From positions 1 through 50,559 of the forward strand of contig JAFSUP010000070.1 in NCBI GenBank assembly GCA_017445205.1: a stretch of DNA of 50,559 nt, in the 5' to 3' direction. A program made the translations under genes and the position numbers. A model generated the notes under the pieces. The model was not told the DNA's origin and did no database searches. It saw only the letters and a program-made list of their open reading frames with translations. The DNA is from Synergistaceae bacterium (GTDB lineage: Bacteria; Synergistota; Synergistia; Synergistales; Aminobacteriaceae). Below, piece by piece: positions 15,199 through 34,333 of the stretch (its first letter is position 1; each line of letters starts with the position of its first letter).

Positions 15199-16137
15199 AT
15201 GGCGGAAAGTTTTTTTGCGGCGCTGCGAGTTGTGATTCCGATGATGTTATTAATGTTGCTAGGGTGGATTTCACGCACAAGAAGTTGGATAACGCGACCG
15301 GCGATGAAAGAATTTGACAAGCTGATTTTTAATTTTTTTATGCCTGCGCTTTTGTTCAAAAATATTTACGAGATGGATTTCTCGCAGGGATTTTTAATTA
15401 AAGAAATGGTTTTCACAGCGTCGGCATTGCTCGTAATTTTTATTTTTAGCTTTTTTGTCCCGAGATTTCTCACGAACGACGGCAATAAATCTTCGGTCAT
15501 TGGTCAAGCTATCGGACGCGGAAATTATATATTATTCGGTGTCGTTGTCTCTGAAGCTCTTTACGGTGAAGGCAACGCGGGGGCGGTCGTTATGCTAGGC
15601 GTGCTTGTGGTCCCGGCGATAAATATTTTCGCGGCTGTGATTCTCGAAATGAATCGTTCTGGCAAAGCGAATCCGTTCAAATTATTTCTTGCAGTTTTGA
15701 AAAATCCCATGATAATCGGAGCAATATTAGCTTTCGTTTTCAAATTTTTTAATTTTCAAATTCCGGCGCCGGTGTGGTCAGTTGTCCGTAGCGTCGCGAA
15801 CTCTACAACGACGTTAAGTTTTATTTCTTTGGGAATTGGTCTTGAGATGCCCGAGGGTGGGGACAAAAAATTATTAGCGTGGGGAACGTTTTTAAGAATG
15901 TTCGTGGTGCCGATTATATTCATGCCGATTTCAATACTTGCAGGATTTAGAGAGCAAAGCCTATGCGCGCTTATGGTAGTTTTTGCAGCTCCGTCGGCTG
16001 TTGCGTCATATCCGATGGCTGTAGCGATGGGAGCGGACGGGAAATTAGCTGGGCAGCTCGTCTGCGTTACGACGATTCTTTCAGTTTTTACGATTTTTTT
16101 GTGGACGTTATTTTTGAAAACTCTGGGCTTTATGTAA
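15199..16137 (+). CDS. AEC-family (auxin efflux carrier-type) transporter
   Basis: A 312-residue inner-membrane protein with about ten membrane segments in two halves, matching the AEC family (for example PMLLMLLGWISR at the N-terminus and VVFAAPSAVASYPMAVAMG in the second half). Bacterial members export or take up small carboxylates such as malate or malonate. TAAAGGAGG lies before the ATG. It follows mreD by 13 bp. Six bases past its stop lies a hairpin with a CCCACCCACCCACCC loop. Confidence 0.88.
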   Translation: MAESFFAALRVVIPMMLLMLLGWISRTRSWITRPAMKEFDKLIFNFFMPALLFKNIYEMDFSQGFLIKEMVFTASALLVIFIFSFFVPRFLTNDGNKSSVIGQAIGRGNYILFGVVVSEALYGEGNAGAVVMLGVLVVPAINIFAAVILEMNRSGKANPFKLFLAVLKNPMIIGAILAFVFKFFNFQIPAPVWSVVRSVANSTTTLSFISLGIGLEMPEGGDKKLLAWGTFLRMFVVPIIFMPISILAGFREQSLCALMVVFAAPSAVASYPMAVAMGADGKLAGQLVCVTTILSVFTIFLWTLFLKTLGFM

Positions 16138-16143
16138 GACTCG

Positions 16144-16176
16144 CCCGCGCTCCCCACCCACCCACCCGAGCGCGGG
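16144..16176. repeat. Hairpin with quadruplex-forming loop, copy 1
   Basis: CCCGCGCTC and GAGCGCGGG form a perfect 9-bp stem, and the 15-base loop is exactly CCCACCCACCCACCC. The opposite strand reads GGGTGGGTGGGTGGG, a canonical three-tetrad G-quadruplex sequence with 1-base loops. It lies just after the AEC stop codon. Confidence 0.9.
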
Positions 16177-16180
16177 TTCA

Positions 16181-16218
16181 TAAAAAATAAAATTCCCCGG
16201 AAATTTCTTCCCGGAGAA
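16181..16218 (-). terminator. Terminator of the TRAP operon
   Basis: Read on the - strand, TTCTCCGG pairs with CCGGGGAA (one mismatch), followed by TTTTATTTTTTAT. It lies about 40 bp downstream of dctP. Confidence 0.75.
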
Positions 16219-16259
16219 TCTTAGAGAATTTTAACAGTTCTGAAATTATAACAGATTAT

Positions 16260-17327
16260 TTATTCCGCAGGAGCTTCGGCCGGAGCAGGCACTTCAACAG
16301 GAGCGGGAGCATTAGCCGCTGCTACGTCTTCAAGACTCTTTTGAAGGGTGCTAGCGAGTCCGTTCGTTGCGGTATCAATTCTCTTGTAAAGGTCTTTAAC
16401 TCCCTGAACGTCAAGGACATCGCTGAAGAATGAATTATCGTATTCAATGATCGTCATTCCGCCAGCTTTGAGCTTGGCCTTGTTGCTCTGGTCAATGTCT
16501 TCGAGCTTCGGGCGCATTTCCTGTAACGCTTCGGCTACAGCCTTGTCTAAGACTGCTTTGTGTTCGGGCGAGAGTGCTTTATAAATCTTGTCGTTGATGC
16601 ACATCTGGTTGCAGTAGAGAATGTGGTTGGTGCAGGCGAGGAATTTTTGAACTTCGTCAAAGTGTGCCGATGCGCAAGTGTCCGCGGCGTTCTCTTGAGC
16701 GTTGACGGTGCCGTTCTGGAGCGAAATGTAAAGCTCTGCCCACGCGAGCGGTGTCGGCTCTGCTCCGATGGCTGTCCAGAAGTCCATATGGTTTTTGTTT
16801 TCCATTGTACGAATCTGAAGGCCTTTGAAGTCGGTCAACGTTCTAATTTCTTTGTTGGCTGTTGCAAGTCTGTAAGTAGCGTTCTGCATGAAGCCAAGAA
16901 GATGAAGTCCGGCTCTCTCGTAAGCTTCAGACATTTTCTTATGGAACTCTGAATCGCCGTTGAGAACTTTATCAATCGTATCGCCGTCGTAACGAGCGAA
17001 GACCATAGGAAGGTCAAACACTGCTACTTCAGGAATGAACGAAACGACCGGCGCAGTCTGGCAGACCATGATAGCGATATAGCCTTTCTGGGCCTGTCTT
17101 AATAAGTCAGCGTCGCCGCCAAGCTCTCCGTTAGGGAAATAGTCAATGACGAGTCCGGCATTAGCGGCTTTGACTTTGTCGCGAACGAGTTCGGCGAAAA
17201 CGTTTCCGGCCGCGCCCTTCGCTGTCGTATCGGACGTAACGAGCCAAGTCTCGTCAAATTCTGACGCAGCAAAAGCGCATGATGTGAATGCTAAAACGAA
17301 AATTAACAGGGCAATAAATTTTTTCAT
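16260..17327 (-). CDS. TRAP transporter solute-binding protein (DctP type)
   Basis: Periplasmic binding protein of a TRAP transporter for an organic acid. A signal peptide (LIFVLAFTSCAFA) is followed by a mature DctP fold with the substrate-carboxylate arginine region LQIRTMENKNHMDFW and NGTVNAQENAADTC. The 355 residues include an unusual C-terminal tail of about 20 residues rich in Pro, Ala and Glu (APAPVEVPAPAEAP), likely a flexible linker. It is the last gene of the - strand operon, 21 bp after dctM, with its own TAGGAGGG Shine-Dalgarno. Confidence 0.93.
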   Translation of the reverse strand: MKKFIALLIFVLAFTSCAFAASEFDETWLVTSDTTAKGAAGNVFAELVRDKVKAANAGLVIDYFPNGELGGDADLLRQAQKGYIAIMVCQTAPVVSFIPEVAVFDLPMVFARYDGDTIDKVLNGDSEFHKKMSEAYERAGLHLLGFMQNATYRLATANKEIRTLTDFKGLQIRTMENKNHMDFWTAIGAEPTPLAWAELYISLQNGTVNAQENAADTCASAHFDEVQKFLACTNHILYCNQMCINDKIYKALSPEHKAVLDKAVAEALQEMRPKLEDIDQSNKAKLKAGGMTIIEYDNSFFSDVLDVQGVKDLYKRIDTATNGLASTLQKSLEDVAAANAPAPVEVPAPAEAPAE

Positions 17328-32638: not shown

Positions 32639-34015
32639 ATGAGCAAATTCGATGTTCCATATAAAATTTATCTTGATGAAAAAGAAATTCCTTCCTCGTG
32701 GTACAACGTCCGTGCTGACATGAAGACAAAGCCCGCGCCGCTGATTCACCCCGGGACGCTAAAACCGATGACGTTTGAGGACATGCGCCCGATTTTCTGC
32801 GACGAACTTATTAAGCAAGAACTCGACGATGACACCGCATATATAAAAATCCCTGACGAAATTTTAAACTTTTATAAAATGTATCGTCCTTCGCCACTTA
32901 CTCACGCGGTCTTTCTTGAAGAAGCACTCGGAACGCCCGCGCATATTTTTTATAAATTCGAGGGCAACAATACTTCCGGCTCTCACAAATTAAACTCCGC
33001 AATCGCTCAGGCTTATTATGCAAAGAAGCAGGGCCTCAAAGGTGTAACGACTGAAACAGGCGCTGGACAATGGGGAACAGCGTTGGCTATGGCGTGCTCG
33101 TTCTTCAAACTCGGCTGCAAAGTTTACATGGTGAAAGTTTCTTACGAACAGAAGCCTTTTAGACGCGAAGTCATGAGGACGTATGGAGCAAGCGTAACGC
33201 CTTCGCCGTCAATGGAAACTGAAATCGGACGCAAAATTAACGCCGAGCACCCGAACACGACGGGCTCATTAGGCTGTGCAATTTCTGAAGCTGTCGAAGT
33301 CGCCGCGTCAACAGAAGGCTATCGCTATGTTCTTGGTAGCGTGTTGAATCAAGTTTTGCTTCATCAGTCTATAATTGGACTTGAAACGAAAGCGGCTTGC
33401 GAAAAGTACGGAATCAAACCTGACATTATAATCGGCTGCGCGGGAGGCGGCTCGAACTTAGGCGGATTAATTTCGCCGTTCATGGGAGAAAAATTGCGCG
33501 GCGAAGCAGATTATGAAATTATTGCGGTAGAGCCGGCGAGCTGTCCGAGCTTAACGCGCGGAAAATTTGCTTACGACTTCTGCGACACTGGCAAAGTCTG
33601 CCCGATGGCTAAAATGTATACGCTTGGTCATGATTTTATTCCGTCAGCTAACCACGCCGGAGGACTTCGTTATCACGGAATGAGCAGCATTTTGTCGCAA
33701 CTTTATCACGACGGATTCATGAAAGCGCGTTCAGTTGAACAGACGAGTGTCTTTGAAGCGGCGGAACAGTTTGCACGCGTCGAGGGAATTTTGCCGGCGC
33801 CGGAAAGTTCACACGCGATCCGAGTTGCGATTGACGAGGCATTAAAGTGCAAAGAGACCGGCGAAGAAAAGACAATAATCTTCGGACTTACAGGCACGGG
33901 ATATTTCGACATGGTAGCGTATGAAAAATATAACGACCATGTAATGACGGACTACATACCGAGCGACGAAGATTTAGCTAAAGGCTTCGCAGGAATCCCT
34001 AATATAAATTTGTAA
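32639..34015 (+). CDS. Tryptophan synthase beta chain-like protein, TrpB2 type
   Basis: A 458-residue PLP enzyme of the TrpB2 group, longer than TrpB1 (about 400). Schiff-base lysine in NTSGSHKLNSA (Lys117), catalytic region TETGAGQWGTALA, phosphate-binding GCAGGGSNLGG and C-terminal GLTGTGYFD. TrpB2 enzymes condense indole and serine without a bound alpha subunit and often serve as indole-salvage enzymes; some use phosphoserine. No trpA or other trp genes are nearby. Strong AAGGAGAG ribosome-binding site. A quadruplex-loop hairpin follows just after the stop. Confidence 0.92.
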   Translation: MSKFDVPYKIYLDEKEIPSSWYNVRADMKTKPAPLIHPGTLKPMTFEDMRPIFCDELIKQELDDDTAYIKIPDEILNFYKMYRPSPLTHAVFLEEALGTPAHIFYKFEGNNTSGSHKLNSAIAQAYYAKKQGLKGVTTETGAGQWGTALAMACSFFKLGCKVYMVKVSYEQKPFRREVMRTYGASVTPSPSMETEIGRKINAEHPNTTGSLGCAISEAVEVAASTEGYRYVLGSVLNQVLLHQSIIGLETKAACEKYGIKPDIIIGCAGGGSNLGGLISPFMGEKLRGEADYEIIAVEPASCPSLTRGKFAYDFCDTGKVCPMAKMYTLGHDFIPSANHAGGLRYHGMSSILSQLYHDGFMKARSVEQTSVFEAAEQFARVEGILPAPESSHAIRVAIDEALKCKETGEEKTIIFGLTGTGYFDMVAYEKYNDHVMTDYIPSDEDLAKGFAGIPNINL

Positions 34016-34021
34016 GTTTTA

Positions 34022-34067
34022 TCGCGCCCTCGTTCTTCCCACCCACCCACCCGAACTTCGGGCGCGA
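34022..34067. repeat. Hairpin with quadruplex-forming loop, copy 2
   Basis: TCGCGCCC pairs with GGGCGCGA, then a small internal loop, then GTTC with GAAC; the loop is TT plus CCCACCCACCCACCC. It has the same loop as copy 1 but a different stem, and again starts within 10 bases of a stop codon. Confidence 0.85.
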
Positions 34068-34088: not shown

Positions 34089-34117
34089 TTGACATATTCC
34101 AATTTGGCGTTTATTAT
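34089..34117 (+). promoter_or_regulatory. Sigma-70 promoter of the dap-lysC operon
   Basis: TTGACA, exactly 17 bp, TATTAT: the best canonical promoter in the window. It gives a leader of about 240 bases before dapA. Confidence 0.75.
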
Positions 34118-34170
34118 TTCACTTGCGATATTAAAGAATATTAGAAAAATTTTGAGAGGAGCGTAAAGAA

Positions 34171-34260
34171 ATGTTAAAAATGGAATCAACGAAAAAATTT
34201 TTTATGTCTCCTTGCCTGTCGTCACGAAAAATAAAACGTGAGTATATATTTTTGCCTTAG
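34171..34260 (+). CDS. Possible 29-residue leader peptide upstream of dapA
   Basis: A small frame with AGAGGAG 9 bp before its ATG: MLKMESTKKFFMSPC then 14 more residues. Five of 29 residues are lysine. It sits between the promoter and a terminator-like hairpin in front of dapA, the layout expected for attenuation. Nothing proves it is translated. The rest of this intergenic stretch holds only the quadruplex hairpin, the promoter and the terminator; the conserved lysine-riboswitch core is not seen. Confidence 0.35.
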   Translation: MLKMESTKKFFMSPCLSSRKIKREYIFLP

Positions 34261-34305
34261 TGAATGACGGACATAAATATATATATTGATATTGCATAGA
34301 TTAAG

Positions 34306-34333
34306 AAGCCGCTCATTCGCTGGGCGGTTTTTT
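34306..34333 (+). terminator. Terminator (possible attenuator) in the dapA leader
   Basis: AAGCCGCTC/GGGCGG(TT) hairpin with a 7-base loop followed by TTTTTT, about 35 bp before dapA. It lies inside the operon leader, not after a recognised gene. Confidence 0.7.

Follow-up and report, generated by a model that had tools for sequence, protein, structure and literature searches.

Two hairpins in a contig of 50,559 nucleotides (the whole stretch analysed, hereafter the window) belong to a dispersed family of palindromic elements whose stems covary around a constrained loop. The reading that we prefer, and to which we give an even chance, is that these hairpins are REP-like palindromic repeats with a G-quadruplex motif in the loop and most likely serve as an orientation-independent element at the 3′ ends of genes. 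We infer that the motif forms a quadruplex, and that this affects transcription or the mRNA. Folding is plausible, because the same (G3T)4 has been reported as a stable parallel quadruplex that also forms during transcription in vitro (PMC7023247). An action at gene ends is suggested by the position of the elements and by their replacing the terminator in short convergent gaps. The window is one contig of a draft Synergistaceae genome (G000; 1.92 Mb, 133 contigs, 80% complete), whose relatives, as found with the permease gene upstream of the first hairpin, are uncultured rumen Synergistaceae / Fretibacterium.

Hairpin 1 consists of the left arm CCCGCGCTC (16144-16152), the loop CCCACCCACCCACCC (16153-16167) and the right arm GAGCGCGGG (16168-16176) on the plus strand. 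One G-U pair extends the nine Watson-Crick pairs that start at 16144, and with it the arms read GCCCGCGCTC (16143-16152) and GAGCGCGGGT (16168-16177). On the minus strand the loop is GGGTGGGTGGGTGGG, a minimal four-run G-quadruplex motif. Sequence and RNA fold (−19.5 kcal/mol, z −5.3) bear out the perfect 9-bp stem and the exact 15-mer loop that a first-pass annotation had described at 16144-16176. In 450 kb of the genome, one other GC-rich perfect stem of at least 9 bp with a loop of 10–22 nt is found, and it is unrelated. Hairpin 2 (34022-34067, plus strand) belongs to the majority stem family of the genome. Its left arm comprises TCGCGCCC, an internal loop and GTTC (34022-34035); two unpaired T precede a C-run loop (34038-34052) identical to the 15-mer of hairpin 1, and the right arm follows with GAAC, an internal loop and GGGCGCGA (34053-34067). 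The annotation had reported the same loop on a different stem here. The 15-mer is indeed identical and the stem different, but the loop measures 17 nt and only contains the 15-mer, and the stem is interrupted (8 bp and 4 bp around the internal loop). Both hairpins begin 6 nt past a TAA stop codon (16135-16137 and 34013-34015), thus within the ten bases that had been claimed. No U-run follows either stem, in line with the earlier statement that these are not ordinary terminators, and the family as a whole does not consist of canonical ones. Allowing up to two mismatches, the 15-mer is observed twice in the window against 0.03 occurrences expected by chance. A search of window positions 14000-36000 gave no Rfam match at gathering score.

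The 15-mer has 16 exact matches in G000, representing 15 distinct elements. The terminal copies of contigs C21 and C73 have 53 nt in common and therefore represent one element; counting them as two was rejected. Another 17 sites carry one substitution, which gives 32 distinct copies, and relatives hold more. The first-pass annotation had made its reading depend on further copies of the loop within stems, and 30 copies exist beyond the pair in the window. All 15 exact and all 17 one-substitution copies of G000 sit as hairpin loops. Unbiased tests used 450 kb of G000 taken in stretches, about a quarter of the genome. There, each of the 16 occurrences of CCCRCCCRCCC is flanked by complementary arms. 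Hairpins with the family stems GCGCCC/GGGCGC, CCGCTC/GGTCGCGG and CCGCGC/GCGCGG all hold the C-run loop, one of them in decayed form, and no family stem carrying an unrelated loop was found in these 450 kb.

Within the loop, change is confined almost entirely to the spacers. Among the one-substitution copies of G000, G062, G014, G027 and G024, 68 of 69 changes fall on the three spacer bases of CCCACCCACCCACCC and one on the twelve C positions, a hand count of related copies in which spacers make up 20% of the positions and for which, hence, no P value is claimed. The four GGG runs are thus kept. The C strand has A or G at almost every spacer position. The rule is four G-runs of three or more bases with short spacers, with three three-run loops in G000 as exceptions; one copy common to G000 and G008 has one CCCA unit fewer in G008. 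The stems behave differently. For 20 copies from other species, pairing of the arms across the loop averages 15.3 pairs, versus 8.2 with arms swapped and 8.0 with shuffled flanks. A set of 62 hairpins displays up to six pair types per position, and pairing falls from 0.84 to 0.45 when the arms are dealt anew; just this drop is informative, because the hairpins had been picked for pairing. In 15 aligned copies of G000 the stems contain 18 double changes, a value reached in 0 of 500 shuffles, and this covariation signal falls strongly when partners are slid by one. Swapped arms, shuffles and spacer counts agree in supporting the earlier proposal that the loop is constrained while the stems change. 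Loop variation in relatives, which had been named as evidence against it, does occur at the three spacer bases, but the G-runs hardly vary.

Positions were counted with simple codon-scored ORF calls of our own. The simple hairpins lie mostly 14–32 nt beyond the stop of the gene read in C-strand direction. For 26 intergenic copies of G000 with genes called on both sides, the surroundings are convergent in 12, tandem with the C strand as mRNA in 8, tandem with the G strand as mRNA in 3 and divergent in 3. The convergent share (12/26) compares with 34 of 213 among all gaps of at least 25 bp in the 450 kb. Some copies lie 5′ of a gene or between divergent genes, and others, two in number, within a gene. 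Of the 34 convergent gaps, 25 have a canonical terminator but lack the element, 6 have the element and 1 has a decayed copy. Short convergent gaps with an element (52–64 bp) hold no other plausible terminator, and the element is their only structure; the "terminators" called in three short element-bearing gaps are the right arm of the element itself. The element is not always the terminator, since a separate canonical terminator lies close by at L004 (the window gap 16137-16259), L013 and L166. The first-pass annotation had placed the G-rich strand as template of the upstream gene, where a quadruplex could block RNA polymerase. This orientation is usual in G000 but not general: nearly half of the bracketed G000 copies are convergent, with the G strand as mRNA of the second gene, and tandem copies are reversed in G062 (G strand as mRNA in 7 of 8) and mostly so in G033. 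Hence, a block on the template strand is too narrow an explanation, and its orientation was rejected as a rule on the evidence of these two relatives.

In this reading, the core of the family is a four-run G-quadruplex/C-run tract that forms the loop, on a stem that is free to vary in sequence. The element spreads as small DNA units of about 40–60 bp that persist mainly behind stop codons and between convergent genes. There, as the most likely mode of action, the GC stem together with a quadruplex, on one DNA strand and in the RNA of a gene read from that strand, would stop or pause the polymerase and/or cap the mRNA 3′ end. For some convergent pairs the element would do the job of the bidirectional terminator used elsewhere in G000. 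A more far-reaching version, which we regard as rather improbable, would make this a new genome-wide class of orientation-independent gene ends, in which a stem-loop quadruplex replaces the U-tract (or protects the 3′ end) and which was spread through the genus by an enzyme recognising quadruplex hairpins.

Dispersal is seen most directly in coding sequence. An identical 39-bp hairpin lies in frame in dnaX (L001, G000:C4, minus strand, tau linker) and in yedF (L009, G000:C65), and encodes SAAPSHPPTPVAA in a linker of both of these unrelated proteins. Orthologues of dnaX and yedF in G021, G007, G020 and G026 are without the hairpin. In G014, the same linker of yedF holds a C-run hairpin on a different stem, and dnaX is split across two contigs at the place of the hairpin. 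The element has thus been moved or copied as a unit. The close relative G008 is 93–95% identical to G000 where aligned. Two element sites are shared in full and one G008 contig ends within the loop; G008 is without the element at two orthologous sites, one of which (L172/L200) is just 85% identical and could be a paralogue. At a third, in G008:C315 (L206:1640-2140), a short toxin-antitoxin-like gene pair stands where G000 has the element L162; it is putatively RelB/RelE-like, with the family guessed from reading frames.

A strong rival, although well short of an even chance in our estimate, is a selfish element tolerated at gene ends. Here the hairpins would be non-autonomous mobile palindromes, either selfish or neutral, the hairpin with its quadruplex would be a signal for a single-strand nuclease or transposase, and gene ends would simply be harmless sites. 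Stem families found at unrelated sites within one genome, presence and absence between G000 and G008, and the in-frame copies in dnaX and yedF all fit such a history, as do other, longer palindromic families of relatives that also hold the C-run core and the same tandem and convergent position of described REPs (PMC3733652). However, the Y1 transposase domain (Y1_Tnp, PF01797) has no match in G000 (80% complete) or in G017, G062, G027, G014 and G024 (95–98% complete), so that the dispersal enzyme is apparently not a Y1/REP transposase. A loop-anchored consensus of 28 copies likewise has no conserved GTAG/CGTC tag at the foot of the stem. Compensation among the stem changes points to maintenance of the structure, though template switching could also yield such changes, and replacement of the terminator in short convergent gaps is a further point against mere tolerance.

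Recognition by RNA or a protein, and not the folding of a quadruplex, could also be what conserves the C-runs. In one such case, an RNA element would present a C-rich single-stranded mRNA loop to a protein (e.g. Rho, which prefers C-rich RNA) or to a G-rich small RNA. We hold this RNA element to be unlikely. It would agree with the strong stem that presents the loop, and with the C strand being mRNA in 8 tandem cases of G000 versus 3, but this bias is small and is reversed in G062 and G033. Moreover, four C-runs in regular register with free spacers speak for a quadruplex more than for a linear C-rich site, and a Rho site would normally be longer than a loop of 15 nt. That the hairpins are ordinary intrinsic terminators whose loop happens to be unusual is very improbable: GC-rich stems right behind stop codons and sole hairpins in several convergent gaps would suit them, but a T-run of at least 4 occurs in the stretch 10–32 nt behind the loop in just 6 of 29 copies, whereas the canonical terminators of G000 have clear T-runs, and an intrinsic terminator needs no constrained 15-nt loop.

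Returning to the reading of a REP-like gene-end element, the closest known systems are REPs, BIMEs and REPINs. REPs are short GC-rich palindromes in tens of copies with species-specific stems and complementary changes; they are mostly extragenic and lie behind genes, between tandem and convergent genes (PMC3733652). The present hairpins share the palindromes in tens of copies (32 distinct in the draft G000, more in G017 and G062), the complementary stem changes and the mostly extragenic position at 3′ ends and between convergent genes. In described REPs the loop is mostly of 2–5 nt, families are defined by the stem, and there is a GTAG/CGTC tag together with a Y1 transposase. In the G000 hairpins, on the other hand, conservation lies in the loop (15 nt with four G-runs), and neither the tag nor, in copy-rich genomes, a Y1 transposase was seen. 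In-frame insertion into unrelated proteins, as for dnaX and yedF, recalls the Rickettsia palindromic elements (RPE), which are longer and of different sequence; we know of no quadruplex loop in these. Quadruplex-forming GGGAATC repeats of Xanthomonas and Nostoc are enriched in intergenic regions (PMC4692102), but are tandem heptamers and not the loop of a variable-stem hairpin. The (G3T)4 and (G3T)8 inserts studied in E. coli contain the same (GGGT)4, but are artificial and stemless and reside on plasmids, whereas the G000 copies are natural, chromosomal and set in palindromes. BoxC / TMECO of E. coli are dispersed conserved repeats built on a non-B DNA structure, with presence reported to be polymorphic (PMC4666352); their motif is an intrastrand triplex, that of the G000 element the quadruplex-motif loop of a hairpin whose stem varies. 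No such hairpin family turned up in a limited search of open-access papers. The question of a selected function of quadruplexes in bacteria is usually debated on the basis of motif counts. The present family provides a natural control, in that stems change with compensation across many copies and several species and the four G-runs stay in register, and its copies offer naturally varied material for tests of a quadruplex in transcription, at mRNA ends or in DNA mobility.

Across the genus, 11 of the 43 genomes contain CCCACCCRCCCRCCC, with a maximum of 72 matches in G017; outside it, 3 of 145 other Synergistota genomes have 1–2 matches each, and the two of these inspected show no hairpin, so a wider distribution of the family was rejected. 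Within the genus the loop sits in hairpins with unrelated yet self-complementary stems. The simple design of the window occurs in G014, G017, G024, G027, G028 and G062. An outer stem enclosing the C-runs plus a second small hairpin is found in G033 and G062, and a longer repeat of about 90 bp carrying C-runs in G017 and G062. A further design, a hairpin that has a constant loop of its own and runs directly into C-runs, occurs in G005, G022, G027 and G061. Since several palindromic designs carry CCCACCCRCCCRCCC, the C-run tract is a module common to several repeat families. The last type (L107, L111, L116, L118, L242, L250, L252, L253) combines the constant loop TCGKCAKGCCKTC and a variable stem with C-runs that follow; a Shine-Dalgarno sequence follows shortly after two of the copies, and another copy precedes a tRNA-like sequence. 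Poly-C tracts of 15–21 nt in relatives (L106, L112-L114, L120, L121, L124, L127) are intergenic or at contig ends. With 2 of 9 tested clearly in a stem loop (L120, L124), they were set apart from the element, and they may be phase-variable tracts or sequencing artefacts. A phage origin was rejected as well, as 4 viral contigs match the flanked motif and none of the matches is in a hairpin.

Copy counts are lower bounds, because the repeats break the assembly graph or their structure depletes reads; elements of this kind tend to interrupt short-read assemblies and are therefore undercounted. In G000, four distinct elements (five listed matches) lie less than 100 nt from contig ends, versus about 0.5 expected. 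In about 13 loci (L201-L220), a contig of G008 breaks off at the orthologous hairpin site or close to it, often tens of bases from the element in unique sequence, and the low copy number of G008 was accordingly not accepted as real loss.

Upstream of hairpin 1 lies a gene for a membrane transport protein (15199-16137, plus strand; Pfam PF03547, AEC-type permease), and downstream, in convergent orientation, one for a TRAP-type solute-binding protein (16260-17327, minus strand; PF03480, DctP). The DctP gene has its own canonical terminator-like hairpin with a T-run (16188-16223, minus strand), separate from hairpin 1, which is thus an additional element in this gap. The same permease/DctP gap of a relative (L060) contains a CCCGGC...GCCGGG hairpin and is without the G4 hairpin, and the permease orthologue of G033 is followed directly behind its stop codon by an inverted element of another design. 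Hairpin 2 follows a gene for a PLP-dependent enzyme (32639-34015, plus strand; PF00291, TrpB-like), and a promoter-like TTGACA-17-TATTAT (34089-34117, plus strand) is located between it and the next gene. This promoter-like site belongs to the leader of a dapA-like gene (34089-34330). The leader has no Rfam match and also includes a possible short leader ORF from about 34171 and a terminator-like GCCGCTCATTCGCTGGGCGGTTTTTT, and it is a possible attenuator.
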